NCBI RefSeq assembly: GCF_023913775.1
Contig: NZ_JAMXAX010000058.1
Span: forward strand, 1-34,553
Reading direction: 5' to 3'
Source of the DNA: Acidovorax facilis
GTDB taxonomy: Bacteria; Pseudomonadota; Gammaproteobacteria; Burkholderiales; Burkholderiaceae_C
DNA: 34,553 nucleotides
The first letter of the stretch is position 1, and every line of letters starts with the position of its first letter. The notes under the pieces are model-generated. The model was not told the DNA's origin. It worked only from the letters and a program-made list of their open reading frames with translations, and ran no database searches. Shown piece after piece: positions 24,128-32,770 of the stretch. Both the position numbers and the translations under genes were made by a program.

Positions 24128-25039
24128 ATGCGATTCAACAAACTCGACCTAAACCTGCTGGTGGCGCTGGACGCGCTGCTGACCGAACGCAATATCAGCC
24201 GCGCGGGTGAGCGCATCCACCTGAGCCAGCCCGCCACCAGCAATGCGCTGGCGCGGCTGCGTACGTATTTCGACGATGAGTTGCTGGTGCCGCAGGGCCG
24301 TCAGATGGTGTTGACGCCCCGCGCCGAGGCGCTGCTGGACCCGGTGCGTGAAGTGCTGATGCGCATCGACAGCACCATCGCTGAGAAGCCCCGCTTTGAC
24401 CCCTCTACCGACACCCGGAGCTTCACGCTGCTGGTGTCAGACTTCACCACCACCGTGTTCATGCAGCCGCTGATCGAGAGGCTGTTTCACGAAGCGCCCG
24501 GGGTGCAAGTGCATCTGCGGGCGCAAAACGCCCGCCCCGTGGAACAGCTGGAGGAGTACGGGGCCGACATGCTCATCATCCCCGAGCAATATGTGTCGGC
24601 CAAACACCCGAGCATGACGCTGTTCGAGGAGACATACATGTGCGTCACCTGGACGGGCAACCCGCACATCCAAGGCCAGCTCAGCTTTGACGACTATCTG
24701 GCGGCGGGACATGTGGTGGCCGACTACTCCGGCGCGCGGCAGATCCCCGCGTTCGATGGCTGGTTTCTGGAGCGCTTTGGCGTCAAGCGCCGCATCGAAG
24801 TCACCGCGCCCACCCTCGCATCCCTGCCTAGCCTGGTGATCGGCACAGCACGCATTGCCACCGTGCACAAGCGCCTTGCTCAACGCGCGCTGCAGTACGG
24901 GCTGCCCATCCACGTATGGGAGCCCCCCCTGGAAATCCCGGTGATGCGCCAGACCCTTCAATGGCACCGCCATCGGGACAAGGACCTGGCTCTGCAGTGG
25001 TTGCGCGAGCGCGCGATCGAGGTGGCTGCGCTTATTTAG
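24128..25039 (+). CDS. LysR-type transcriptional regulator of the catabolic block
   Basis: The gene encodes 303 residues, normal for the family. The winged helix-turn-helix covers residues 4-64 (LDLNLLVALDALLTERNISRAGERIHLSQPATSNALARLR). A linker helix follows and then a periplasmic-binding-like effector domain (about 95-300). The start DLNLLVALDALL and the central SDFTTTVFMQPLIERL are typical of the NodD/LinR/NahR subgroup, whose members respond to aromatic compounds. It is divergent from the DUF1302-led block, with an 8-bp-arm palindrome 15 bases upstream, so it most likely controls that block in response to a pathway compound. No clear Shine-Dalgarno is seen before the ATG. Its TAG stop overlaps the first bases of a repeat fragment. 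Confidence 0.92.
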   Translation: MRFNKLDLNLLVALDALLTERNISRAGERIHLSQPATSNALARLRTYFDDELLVPQGRQMVLTPRAEALLDPVREVLMRIDSTIAEKPRFDPSTDTRSFTLLVSDFTTTVFMQPLIERLFHEAPGVQVHLRAQNARPVEQLEEYGADMLIIPEQYVSAKHPSMTLFEETYMCVTWTGNPHIQGQLSFDDYLAAGHVVADYSGARQIPAFDGWFLERFGVKRRIEVTAPTLASLPSLVIGTARIATVHKRLAQRALQYGLPIHVWEPPLEIPVMRQTLQWHRHRDKDLALQWLRERAIEVAALI

Positions 25040-25104
25040 AACGTGTTCAAGATTTTTTCAGGGTCGCACAAGGCCCTTGCCGGGATGGGATGCAAGGCGC
25101 AAGG
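25038..25104 (+). repeat. partial copy of the terminal region of the 268-bp element
   Basis: Starting with AGAACGTGTT, these bases match the right end of the 31651-31918 element (read on the opposite strand) at about 54 of the first 62 positions by eye. The matched part includes the TTTTCAGGG segment and the CGGGATGGGATGCAAGGCG block. Only one end is present and no second inverted end is seen before eamA. The AG of the lysR TAG stop codon belongs to the repeat. Confidence 0.8.
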
Positions 25105-28987: not shown

Positions 28988-29527
28988 TCAGCCTCGCAGC
29001 CAGGCCAGCATGTGCGGATAGGCCGGGGTTCCGCCCGGCAGGACCTGCGCGGGCAGCAGGGTGAGCCCCGCAGCGGCCAGGCCCGAGGCGCCCAGGTACA
29101 CCCCCAGCTCAAAGGTGGTGCGCAACCCGACGGAGCGCCCGTGGTAACCGCCGTCATGGAACAGCACGGCGGAATCCAGCCCCAGGTGCCGAGTGGCCGC
29201 CCAGGCCCAGGCCGTGGCTTCGATCTCACCACCGTGGGCCACCTCGGGCAGGTCCTGCAGCGCATCATCCAGGGTGGACCGCAGCGCCGTGGGTACCACC
29301 GCCAGGTGGCCAGCTTCATGCAGCAGGTCTCCAGGCCAGCGCAGCCGCGCCCGGTCCACACGCAGGCCACCCCGCTCGATGCGGACGCCGGGTAGAAAAC
29401 TGCCTTCGGGGACCTCGGCCTCGCAGACCGCAACGCCAATGCTGCGCAGGAAGGCCAGGATGCGGTCCGTCAATGCGCCGTGGTCCGCCGCTGCCGCTGC
29501 AGCGTTGGAGGATTCTTCGCGGCTCAT
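28988..29527 (-). CDS. small protein with HExxH metal-binding motif
   Basis: The gene encodes 179 residues with no signal peptide or membrane helix. The motif HEAGH at residues 70-74 (DLLHEAGHLAV), followed about 27 residues later by EIEATAWAWAA (Glu101 or Glu103), resembles the zinc site of minimal gluzincin proteases such as ImmA/IrrE, where a downstream Glu gives the third ligand. The first 65 residues contain a helical N-terminus and a beta hairpin. I do not recognise the family, and protease activity is a guess from the motif. Its ATG at 29527 overlaps the stop of the LplT-PlsC gene by four bases (ATGA), so its production is coupled to that phospholipid enzyme. It ends in a convergent gap with a terminator. 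Confidence 0.78.
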   Translation of the reverse strand: MSREESSNAAAAAADHGALTDRILAFLRSIGVAVCEAEVPEGSFLPGVRIERGGLRVDRARLRWPGDLLHEAGHLAVVPTALRSTLDDALQDLPEVAHGGEIEATAWAWAATRHLGLDSAVLFHDGGYHGRSVGLRTTFELGVYLGASGLAAAGLTLLPAQVLPGGTPAYPHMLAWLRG

Positions 29528-31464
29528 GCTTGCAGCAGGTCCGCCACCCGGGTGCGCAGCAGCGCAGGCTGCACCTGCGTCGATGCCACCGGGCGGCCCA
29601 CATTGAGCCCCACACGGCTGAAAAATCCCCGCCGGAACGGTCGCACCATGGCGCCGCCCTGCTCGATACGGCTGAAGTACGAGCCCCACAAATTGGTCAG
29701 CGCCATGGGGATCACGGGGGCCTCGATGCCCTCGGCACGTGCGCGCTCGATGATCTTCATGATGCCGCCCTTGAACTCCTGCAGCTGCCCGTCCTTGGTG
29801 ATTCCACCTTCAGGGAAGATGGCCAGCAGGTCTCCCTCGCGCAGCACCTGCGCGGCGCGGTCGAAGGCGGCTTCGTAAGTCTTGGGGTCTTCCTTGTAGG
29901 GTGCAATCGGAATCGCCTTGGCGAGGCGGAACAGCCACCCCAGCACCGGCACGCGGAAGATGCGGTGGTCCATCACGAAGTAGATGGGGCGCGGGCTGGC
30001 CGCCATGAGCAACACGGCATCGACAAAGCTCACGTGGTTGCAGGCCAGGATGGCCGCGCCCGCCGAAGGCAGGTTCTCGTCGCCCTGCACCTTGAAGCGG
30101 TACACGAAGCGCGACGACACCCAGGCCACAAACCGCAGCAGGTACTCGGGCACCAGCATGAAGATATAGAACGCCACCACCGCGTTGGCGATGCCCGTGA
30201 ACAGGAAGATCTGCGGCACCGTGAAGCCCGCGCCCAGCAAGGCACCGGCGATGAGCGAGCTGGCAATCATGAACAGTGCGTTCAGGATGTTGTTGGCCGC
30301 GATGATGCGTGCGCGGTGCGTGGGCTGGCTGCGCATCTGGATCAGTGCGTACATGGGCACGCTGTACAGGCCCGCAAACAGGCTCAGCAGCAGCAGATCC
30401 AGCATCACACGCCAGTGCGCGCCCTGGGCCATGAAGGCGGCCAGGCCCATGATCTCGGCAGGGGGCAGGCTGCGCGAGGCGAAGTACAGGTCGATGGAGA
30501 ACACGCTCATGCCGATGGCGCCCAGCGGCACCAAGCCGATCTCGACATGGCGGCGCGAGAGCACCTCGCACAGCAGCGAGCCGATGCCGATGCCGATGGA
30601 GAACACCACCAGCAGCAGCGAGGCCACCTGTTCGTTGCCGTGCAACACCTCCTTGGCCAGGCTCGGAAACTGGCTCAGGAACACGGCGCCAAAGAACCAC
30701 ATCCAGCTAATGCCGAGCAGCGAGCGGAACACTGCGACGTTCTCGTGCGCCAGTTTCAGGTTGCACCAGGTTTCCGTGAAGGGATTCCAGTTGATGGTCA
30801 GGCCCGGGTCGGTGGCGGGCAGCGAGGGAATGAACTGCGCGACCGCGCGCCCGGCCAGGGCCGCCACCACGCAGGCCACGGCCACCGTGGTGTGGCCAAT
30901 GCCCGGGATGGCCACCAGCAGGCCACCGGCCACATTGCCCAGCAGGATGGCCACAAAGGTGCCCATCTCCACCATGCCATTGCCGCCGGTCAGCTCACGT
31001 TCGTTGAGCACCTGGGGCATGTAGGCGAACTTGACGGGGCCGAACAGCGTGGAGTGCACCCCCATCAGAAAGGTGCACAGCAGCAAGACGGGCACGTTGT
31101 CCGTCATGAACCCGAAGGCCGCCACCAGCATGATGGCGATCTCCATGTTCTTCACGAAGCGGATCATCTTTGTCTTGTCGTACTTGTCGGTCAGCTGCCC
31201 CGAGGTTGCCGAGAACAGCAAAAACGGCAGGATGAACAGCGCACCAATCACCAGCCCCGCCATCGCTGGCGGTAGCCACGACACGCTGAGCTGGTAGGTC
31301 ACCATCACGGTGAACGCGAACTTGAAGAGGTTGTCGTTGGCCGCCCCAGAAAATTGCGTCCAGAAGAACGGCGCAAATCGCCGCTGGCGCAGCAGGGCGA
31401 ACTGGTTCGGGTCCTCATGCGTCGGCACTGGCGCCGCGCTGGCTGAGGGAGTCTCGGGGTGCAT
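29524..31464 (-). CDS. LplT-type MFS transporter fused to PlsC-type acyltransferase
   Basis: The gene encodes 646 residues. The first 430 or so are a 12-helix MFS domain like the lysophospholipid flippase LplT (FFWTQFSGAANDNLFKFA, FGPVKFAYMPQ, a GGNGMVEMGTF segment). The last 190 form a 1-acylglycerophosphate acyltransferase with the catalytic NHVSFVDA (His477 and Asp482 by my count) and FPEGG near 550. LplT flips lysophospholipid inward and PlsC-type domains reacylate it. The AMP-binding domain that follows in full Aas fusions is absent, so the acyl donor is probably acyl-CoA or acyl-ACP supplied elsewhere. The ATG at 31464 has an excellent GAGGAG site 6 bases upstream; the in-frame ATG at 31533 lacks family sequence. 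The stop overlaps the HExxH gene. Confidence 0.92.
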   Translation of the reverse strand: MHPETPSASAAPVPTHEDPNQFALLRQRRFAPFFWTQFSGAANDNLFKFAFTVMVTYQLSVSWLPPAMAGLVIGALFILPFLLFSATSGQLTDKYDKTKMIRFVKNMEIAIMLVAAFGFMTDNVPVLLLCTFLMGVHSTLFGPVKFAYMPQVLNERELTGGNGMVEMGTFVAILLGNVAGGLLVAIPGIGHTTVAVACVVAALAGRAVAQFIPSLPATDPGLTINWNPFTETWCNLKLAHENVAVFRSLLGISWMWFFGAVFLSQFPSLAKEVLHGNEQVASLLLVVFSIGIGIGSLLCEVLSRRHVEIGLVPLGAIGMSVFSIDLYFASRSLPPAEIMGLAAFMAQGAHWRVMLDLLLLSLFAGLYSVPMYALIQMRSQPTHRARIIAANNILNALFMIASSLIAGALLGAGFTVPQIFLFTGIANAVVAFYIFMLVPEYLLRFVAWVSSRFVYRFKVQGDENLPSAGAAILACNHVSFVDAVLLMAASPRPIYFVMDHRIFRVPVLGWLFRLAKAIPIAPYKEDPKTYEAAFDRAAQVLREGDLLAIFPEGGITKDGQLQEFKGGIMKIIERARAEGIEAPVIPMALTNLWGSYFSRIEQGGAMVRPFRRGFFSRVGLNVGRPVASTQVQPALLRTRVADLLQA

Positions 31465-31519
31465 GCGTTTCTCCTCGTTTCCGATGGGTTGGCTTGTTGG
31501 AATTTTCCGTGCCCGCACT

Positions 31520-32668
31520 TCATGCGCCTTCATGGCTCTTCATGCGCGTGATCTGCGGGCAACACCCACGGCGTGGGCGCCATTCTGCCCGGACAGCGTG
31601 ACGTGCGGCGCGCTCCGTGCAGCACTGTTGCGCAATGCCGCCAGTGCCCCAGAACGTGTTTACGATCTTTTCGGGGCCGCGTTGGGACGCAATCGGGATG
31701 AGTGGATGCATCGGCTGCTTGCATGGGCTCGAGCCCATGCAAGCAGCCGGAGCGTCCAATCGCCCGATTTCGCCCCAACCCTTCGGGCAAGCACCTTGCC
31801 GGGCGGTCTGCGGCGTTGCAGCGCTTGTGGATAGCCGAGCTATCCACTGCGCACCACGCCTTGCATCCCATCCCGACAAGGTGCTTGCGCGGCCCTGAAA
31901 AGATCGTAAACACGTTCTTAGCACGGGCCAGGCGGCGCCAGCCGCGAACACGTGCTTGAGGCTGTGGCCTGACACCCACTGGTGGGTGGCATCAAACACC
32001 GCGTGGTCCGCCGCCTCGAACAACTTGGCCACGGCATACAGGCCAATGACCGCGCCCAAGTGCACCTCCAGCGCGCCATCGCGCCGGGGCAGACAGGCCA
32101 GCGCCGATACCACCAGCATGCCGCCCAGTTGCACTACGGCCCAGGGCATCAGGTTGCCGGTGTGTGCCCACCACAGCACGGCCAACGGCCCCGCCAGCAG
32201 CACCGCCCCCGCCATGGCCCAGCCTGCCCGTTCGCTCACGCGGCTGGCCGCCGGCCCCAGCAGTCCTGCAAACGGCAGCACCATGCCCAGCCGGTCCCAC
32301 AGCAGGCCCGCATCCTGCGGTTGCCAGTGGTAAACGCTGGAGCCCACGGCCGTACACAGCAGCCCCGCAAAAAACAGGGCGGCCAGCGCGCGCGAGGCGG
32401 GATCCAGCGCTCCTGGCGCCAACCGGCGCAGCGCCCACAGGCCCCACACCCCTGCGATGGCAAACGGCAGATTGCTGAGTACATCCACCGCGCAAGGAAT
32501 GCCCCACAGCGCCCGCTGGTCGGCAAAGGCATGCTGGTGTGCGCTTGCGGGCAGCACCGGGCCGAACAACGCCAGCGCCAGCAACGCGGCCGCGCCCAGC
32601 ACGAGAGCCATTTCAGCGCGGGTCGCGGGCTTGTGGCGCCGGGGGGGGAGAGAAATCAGAGAGATCAT
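31520..32668 (-). CDS. CREST-type (alkaline ceramidase-like) membrane protein, 3' end altered by an inserted element
   Basis: The first 250 or so residues form a seven-helix protein with the CREST metal-hydrolase pattern: DVLSNLPFAIAG, SSVYHWQP (Ser and His), LWDRLGM (Asp), and WVSGHSLKHVFAAGAAWPVL (two His). Such proteins hydrolyse amide bonds in the membrane, ceramides for example, but bacterial substrates are unknown. From codon 250 the frame enters the 268-bp element at 31918 and leaves it shifted. The present product therefore has an unrelated tail of about 130 residues and stops at 31520. Removing 31651-31918 restores a frame ending LGALAALRNSAAR and so on, with a stop at 31540. The ATG at 32668 is preferred to the GTG at 32677. 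All catalytic residues precede the insertion, so activity may survive. Confidence 0.82.
   Translation of the reverse strand: MISLISLPPRRHKPATRAEMALVLGAAALLALALFGPVLPASAHQHAFADQRALWGIPCAVDVLSNLPFAIAGVWGLWALRRLAPGALDPASRALAALFFAGLLCTAVGSSVYHWQPQDAGLLWDRLGMVLPFAGLLGPAASRVSERAGWAMAGAVLLAGPLAVLWWAHTGNLMPWAVVQLGGMLVVSALACLPRRDGALEVHLGAVIGLYAVAKLFEAADHAVFDATHQWVSGHSLKHVFAAGAAWPVLRTCLRSFQGRASTLSGWDARRGAQWIARLSTSAATPQTARQGACPKGWGEIGRLDAPAACMGSSPCKQPMHPLIPIASQRGPEKIVNTFWGTGGIAQQCCTERAARHAVRAEWRPRRGCCPQITRMKSHEGA
31712..31749. repeat. 38-bp perfect palindrome at the core of the first hairpin
   Basis: There are 19 bases on each side with no loop, centred on CTCGAG at 31728-31733. Imperfect pairing continues outwards (GTTGGG at 31681 with CCCAAC at 31774), so the whole 99-base segment can fold as one hairpin or cruciform. 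Confidence 0.95.
31787..31888. repeat. second long hairpin of the element
   Basis: The outer arms, starting GCAAGCACCTTG at 31787-31803, pair with 31872-31888 (16 of 17). The inner arms GTGGATAGC and GCTATCCAC (31827-31835 and 31839-31847) enclose a 3-base loop, with GCGC and GGCG/CGCC pairing between. It is nested like bacterial palindromic repeats but much longer than ordinary REP units. Confidence 0.88.
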
Positions 32669-32770
32669 GGTCGTCACATCCGTGGATGAGTGGGGATTGC
32701 CGCGCAGTGTGTTCAGCCGCAGTCACCCGGACACCAGAAAGTCGCTCAGAGGGCTACCAAAGCCACCTCA

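Follow-up and report, generated by a model that had tools for sequence, protein, structure and literature searches.

What is the 268-bp palindromic sequence at 31651..31918 of the window (the whole analyzed stretch of 34,553 nucleotides from Acidovorax facilis), by what means could it have moved, and what keeps its long hairpins paired?

Structure of the element

The features of the locus are as follows:

31520..32677 (- strand), host ORF, whose 3' end is entered by the element; a membrane protein, judging by its sequence
31649..31651, left target copy, CCA, which differs from its partner TTA at 31918-31920
31651..31918, whole element, 268 bp; 31-bp inverted ends with one mismatch enclosing two long hairpins
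31651..31681 (+ strand), left terminal inverted repeat; the transposon proper starts at 31652 with GAACGTGTTTACGATCTTTTC...
31652-31917, transposon proper, GAACG...CGTTC; the 3-bp target copies sit outside it
31682..31778 (+ strand), arm A, the first long hairpin, which folds and whose paired columns carry two-sided changes
31712..31749 (+ strand), 38-nt perfect loopless palindrome forming the tip of arm A, found in the window copy only
31779..31787 (+ strand), CCCTTCGGG mini-hairpin between arms A and B, seen in the fold
31788..31887 (+ strand), arm B, the second long hairpin, paired and with two-sided changes
31804..31875 (+ strand), 72-bp conserved core of arm B, also present in MITEs with IS5-like ends
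31888..31918 (- strand), right terminal inverted repeat; the transposon proper stops at 31917
31918..31920, right target copy TTA, adjoining the right terminal inverted repeat

Alignment of 31651-31681 with 31888-31918 showed that the two ends are complementary with one mismatch, just as the first-pass annotation had described them, and the two consecutive long palindromic units that it had reported were recovered as arm A (31682-31778) and then arm B (31788-31887). The folding energy that it had proposed to calculate proved to be far beyond chance: as DNA, the element folds at -119.5 kcal/mol versus -52.3 +/- 4.1 kcal/mol for 200 dinucleotide shuffles (z = -16.6; 0 of 200 shuffles as good).

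Copies and distribution of the family

The window element is one copy of a widespread gene-less mobile family of Acidovorax and relatives. In its own genome, 45 matches were reduced to at least 23 distinct places including that of the window, a lower bound given that 40 of 69 candidates were scored; 19 long alignments showed 80-100% identity. Among the copies found, the one nearest to the window element is 93% identical to it. Matches were detected in 24 of 40 genomes (its own included) and in 23 of 24 Acidovorax genomes, one of them weakly; the copy counts per genome elsewhere are likewise lower bounds, only part of the candidates having been scored. A survey at the family level gave matches in 45 of 200 genomes and 37 of 141 genera (counting the own genome and partial matches), and essentially full-length copies were present in 16 (own included) of these 45 genomes. 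Merging of exact duplicates (five lines) left 112 copies for analysis, in which copies that share a location in two species (e.g., L010 and L035) were counted separately.

The copies are dispersed and polymorphic in placement. A phage search returned nothing matching the whole element or arm B, and an exact-pattern scan of IMG/VR found one viral contig, possibly a prophage, with a full family copy at about 1440-1712 (L300). In plasmids, one record with a match, a Comamonas plasmid, was found. Among the top-ranked results of a literature search, no description of the family was found, which does not prove its absence.

The sequence had initially been called MITE-like, which is supported by the multiplicity of copies, their common ends, the duplicated targets, the empty sites and a candidate transposase partner. 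The search for further copies, suggested at the same time, yielded many with the same ends and hairpins, rather than none or hairpin-less ones. The members of the family have terminal inverted repeats, are short, occur in multiple copies and contain no transposase gene, all of which are criteria of type II MITEs. The nested two-hairpin layout, at first regarded as a departure from simple MITEs or REP/BIME units, is ordinary for the family, whose members are about 269 bp long, and is no peculiarity of the window copy.

In addition, the window contains at 25038-25099 the decayed remnant of another end of this family (87% identity with that of the element), and the ORF 24128-25039 terminates inside it. 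A very short derivative, comprising one end and an inverted end within about 40 bp with the interior absent, was noted at G000:C188:16620 (L064 2621).

Target sites and empty sites

The 3-bp sequences immediately outside GAAC...GTTC were compared for 108 of the 112 copies. TNA was present at 165 of 216 ends, and the flanking 3-mers were identical in 52 of 108 copies (shuffled mean 21.4, maximum 31). Flanks of 2, 4, 5 and 6 bp were identical in 5, 1, 0 and 0 of 108 copies, respectively, and 3-mers shifted outward in 1 to 3 of 108. The family thereby shows the target-site duplication expected of type II MITEs, and the window copy has the non-identical pair CCA/TTA. Given TNA as the family target, CCA at 31649..31651 would be a decayed TNA. 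The recent mobility put forward in the first-pass annotation is not supported for the window copy, since its CCA and TTA targets differ and its identity with the nearest copy is 93%; this copy, an ordinary member of its family, looks old.

As for the empty sites, 27 relatives' loci were examined at the window site, seven of which, without one or both flanks, were left out. The element was missing from all 20 loci holding both flanks, at some of which the upstream flank ends early, with sequence other than that of the element in between. By eye, the pre-insertion site deduced for the window copy is one base shorter than that of the nearest relatives. Also by eye, the length of the Acidovorax radicis locus L263, compared with the site of L023, fits one 3-bp copy without the element; this empty site reads CGA where L023 has TAA, the target having changed on one side. 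The CCA/TTA mismatch, the site shorter by one base and the CGA of L263 are counted against mobilization in trans, the model preferred below.

The predicted tail of the host ORF, from the insertion onward, is unlike the tails of its relatives, and its protein gave no match to a Pfam or NCBIfam family. Elsewhere in the window, Rfam RF02835 (Bcj11, Burkholderia RNA 11) was matched at 30643-30764 on the minus strand with 70.6 bits versus a gathering score of 49 bits; the match falls inside the ORF 29524-31533, which encodes a fused MFS/acyltransferase protein.

Candidate partner insertion sequence

The trail to an Acidovorax insertion sequence led from a weak end match (E about 3) beside a Lactiplantibacillus IS5 transposase with in-frame stops. 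The Acidovorax genome G022 contains three copies of an apparently intact 876-bp IS5-family insertion sequence with the ends GAACCTGTTCAARATCTTTT (written pairwise, GAACCTGTTCAAGATCTTTT / GAACCTGTTCAAAATCTTTT) and two overlapping ORFs. Its target 3-mers are TTA/TTA in L084 and L074 and TAA/TTA in L089; a TNA target with a 3-bp repeat is a trait of the IS1031 group, as far as the available descriptions go. The ORFs were matched to the models NF033580 (IS5 transposase; below the cut-off for the first ORF, above it for the second), PF13340 and PF01609. In L074, a family MITE copy directly adjoins the insertion sequence. One end of an insertion sequence in genome G019 is of the window's type, GAACGTGTTTACGATCTT, and the opposite end has diverged; other genomes contain insertion sequences, or remnants of them, with ends of other types. 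Similarity between the MITE and the insertion sequence is confined to the ends (about 20 bp, by eye), and the 72-bp core motif was absent from all seven insertion sequence copies scanned. Judging by its ends, target duplication, ORF layout and family models, the putative partner probably belongs to the IS1031 group.

A similar element is ISLrh, which, in the available part of its description, is assigned by its authors to the IS1031 subgroup and has a length of 857 bp, 17-bp GAACCTG ends, two overlapping ORFs and 3-bp TNA repeats (PMC12016507). As described there, its ends, size class, ORF layout and TNA repeats match those of the Acidovorax partner. ISLrh is an autonomous insertion sequence of a Lacticaseibacillus, whereas the window element contains no transposase gene and shares with it only the kind of ends (PMC12016507).

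The first transposase query gave matches in 11 of 30 genomes of the genus and none in the window's own genome. With the second ORF as the query, 12 of 40 genus genomes (own included) matched at E 1e-20 or better; in the own genome, the match was only a 79-residue transposase remnant, and present mobility there is therefore doubtful, though the assembly consists of 415 contigs.

The window element is very probably a non-autonomous type II MITE with a modular interior, moved in trans by a DDE transposase of the IS1031 group (IS5 family) with TNA duplication. The shared ends, TNA duplications, presence and absence at sites, covariation, and independent change of ends and interior were observed directly; mobilization by an IS1031-group transposase is the mechanism to which they probably point. 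Acting in trans, such a transposase would bind the ~20-bp ends (GARCSTGTTYA...TCTTTT) and move the element into CTNAG-like sites with a 3-bp TNA duplication, and pairing of the long palindromes would be maintained through template-switch repair of the hairpins, selection acting on the folded structure, or both. Counted against this model are the transposase matches in just 12 of 40 genus genomes and the rarity of ends exactly of the window's type next to a TNA target, which were found in only 9 of 299 genomes of the family (7 of 141 genera), the reversed control pattern having no match among the 299.

REP/REPIN sequences with RAYT are defined, among other things, by a Y1 transposase and the absence of target duplication. 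Spread of the window's family as REP/BIME- or REPIN-type palindromes by a Y1 (TnpA-REP/RAYT) transposase would agree with the many dispersed palindromic copies, but the ends resemble in kind those of a DDE IS5-family insertion sequence, the copies carry 3-bp TNA duplications and their length is about 269 bp; this origin seems highly improbable to us. The Y1/TnpA-REP gene family considered in the first-pass annotation thus finds no support in the end type or the duplications. REP/REPIN membership was also rejected by definition, the TNA duplications being at odds with the absence of duplication in that group.

Maintenance of hairpin pairing

Covariation was analyzed in 101 of the 112 copies after removal of three reverse self-matches, of lengths outside 266-273 and of copies with identity under 70%. 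In this set, 94.1% of cells were paired and 67 of 114 pairs showed two-sided changes (1060 cells). When the partners were slid by 1-3 columns, the controls gave 33-43% of cells paired, a comparison that favors the true pairing on this measure since the window copy supplied the structure, as well as 30-40 pairs and 144-184 cells with two-sided changes. In the ends, 27 of 31 pairs showed two-sided changes, which could stem merely from one transposase reading both ends. Arm A had 90.8% of cells paired and two-sided changes in 21 of 41 pairs (slid controls, 9-13 pairs). For arm B, with 96.2% of cells paired, the 19 of 39 pairs with two-sided changes hardly exceeded the best control (11-18 pairs), while the number of cells clearly did (335 versus 118 in the best of the controls, which gave 31-118). 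As 39 of the 101 copies came from an exact core-pattern scan, core conservation is quoted from the other 62; these gave 94.0% of cells paired and 64 pairs with 591 cells, versus 24-32 pairs and 71-100 cells in the slid controls. Maintenance of the hairpin pairing is supported by this covariation.

The 38-bp perfect loopless palindrome reported at the tip of arm A is indeed present at 31712-31749, but it is not a trait of the family: among the 101 aligned copies, the whole palindrome occurs in the window copy only. The commonest left half of the tip is CGGATGCGCCGCATGGGCTC (31 of 101 copies), relative to which the left half of the window copy (31712-31730) has several substitutions and one base fewer, being exactly complementary to its own right half. 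It was found in two copies, both from the window's own genome, the second of which does not contain the whole palindrome. Template switching in the hairpin would leave such a left half at the tip of arm A.

The near-perfect pairing had been thought to imply selection on structure. Maintenance follows from the covariation, but selection is not distinguished by it from palindrome correction. Pairing might be kept by quasipalindrome correction only, in which template switching within the hairpin at replication rewrites one half and function is unneeded, and we give this somewhat less than an even chance. The exactly complementary left half in 2 of 101 copies, both from one genome, is consistent with such correction, as is the correlation of 0.94 between left-end and right-end mismatches of different copies. 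The left core strand argues against it: in the 62 unselected copies, this strand (positions 150-169) is 98.1% conserved, compared with 81% for the outer ends and 90% for arm A, despite containing mismatched positions of the sort that correction should remove. Conservation of the right core strand in these copies is lower (93.2%, minimum 0.61). Alternatively, the folded element could function as an RNA or a regulator, such as a terminator, an RNase III site or a processed RNA, whose structure is selected for the host. The stable RNA folds predicted for arm A and for both strands of arm B, the compensatory changes and the conserved core would fit such a role, which nevertheless appears unlikely in view of the dispersed and polymorphic placement, the location of the window copy inside the 3' end of a gene, and the Rfam analysis, where no family reached the gathering score within the element and only weak microRNA matches below the cut-off appeared. 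A one-hairpin relative of the element gave nothing in Rfam up to E 1. For the MITE preferred here, pairing is probably kept by template switching and possibly by selection.

Ends and interior as separate modules

Among the copies, 1019 pairs have interiors at least 90% identical, and in 398 of these each of the two ends differs at no fewer than 4 of 20 positions; in one pair with 96.6% interior identity, the ends differ at 11 and 12 of 20 positions. Differences of the left and right ends vary together (the above correlation of 0.94), the correlation of interior identity with end differences being only -0.31.

When named genomes were scanned for the 72-bp core, at least 119 stretches were obtained, by name mostly of Burkholderiales or other Betaproteobacteria. 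Among the matches listed, the core was also present in a Mariprofundaceae MAG and in four contigs of one Desulfovibrionaceae MAG, where binning errors are possible. The matches are not independent, many originating from a small number of genomes (a Paucibacter MAG, a Comamonas MAG and Paracidovorax wautersii). Of 124 core matches listed, 53 fall within elements whose ends are of the window's type and 35 within elements bearing ends such as GGATGCTCTGCATAAC, which we take to be IS5-like; 23 are too near the end of a stretch, and 13 were assigned to neither class, although many of the latter resemble decayed copies of the two classes by eye.

In the second class, 28 of 35 elements (among the matches listed) are 162-172 bp long and hence one-hairpin. 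Their 4-bp flanks are duplicated in 17 of 32 elements (shuffled mean 4.4, maximum 11), namely, CTAG in 7, TTAG in 6, CTTG in 2, and CTGA and CTAA in 1 each; this count omits three of the 35 rows (two without the scripted end motif and one without a right flank) and scores L246, whose boundary was mis-set, as a miss. These duplications, together with the presumed likeness of the ends, make a link of the second class to the IS5 group plausible. As for an insertion sequence serving this class, one Comamonas genome had none of the listed end pairs at insertion sequence distance, and plasmids with such an end gave nothing convincing. The Comamonas MAG of L215 (G351) contains 48 IS5-like ends: 17 pairs 149-161 bp apart, 6 single ends, and 4 further pairs 68-91 bp apart, too short for the core.

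Contigs of Thiobacillus and Gallionellaceae (L161 and L216) contain a two-arm element with IS5-like ends in which, by eye, arm A is an inverted copy of the core; this suggests that the two-arm forms arose through core duplication. The interior behaves as a separate module, of which the arms and above all the 72-bp core persist while the ends shift toward different IS5-family types. The presence of the core in both end classes could reflect old shared ancestry, the ends having drifted apart. It is also possible, though on balance doubtful, that the core hairpin is a functional cis-module (e.g., a transposition enhancer or a host-protein site) passed between MITEs of different IS5-family transposases. 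If this is true, the body would outlive each transposase by changing its ends, and the one-hairpin YTAR and two-hairpin TNA elements would form one lineage of end-swapping parasites. MITE families are usually recognized by their ends, with the interior as filler; here, a structured interior is conserved and both ends vary together, looking like the ends of different lineages of insertion sequences. With many natural variants within one genus, end exchange and palindrome maintenance are directly testable.

Comparison with known systems

The window's family is new, belongs to a known kind of element and is unusual in its modular history. According to the available part of their description, type II MITEs are defined by similarity to the autonomous partner restricted to the ends (PMC10969869). 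The window's family resembles the bacterial type II MITEs presented there in end-only similarity, direct repeats and a strong fold, and differs in its two consecutive long covarying arms and in a core common to two end types (PMC10969869). The Correia/NEMIS, RPE and YAPL/RU-2 repeats, compared by their description in the accessible text, are likewise small palindromic mobile repeats, the Correia elements having an optional internal module, but they differ in sizes and reported ends (PMC2229807). For IS5, the portions of the reports at hand give YTAR duplications, mostly CTAG (PMC5493358, PMC10359306). This rule, as stated there, fits 14 of the 17 duplications of the relatives with IS5-like ends, whereas the window's family duplicates TNA (PMC5493358, PMC10359306).

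Other palindromic elements with related ends or hairpins were also observed. L061, L062 and L063 have the window's exact 22-bp ends and different interiors, which are likewise palindromic. In the minus-strand reading of L014, past the right end of the element, another palindromic element has the ends CTAGGAGGCTGTCGGACTT and, inside, a hairpin similar to the core.
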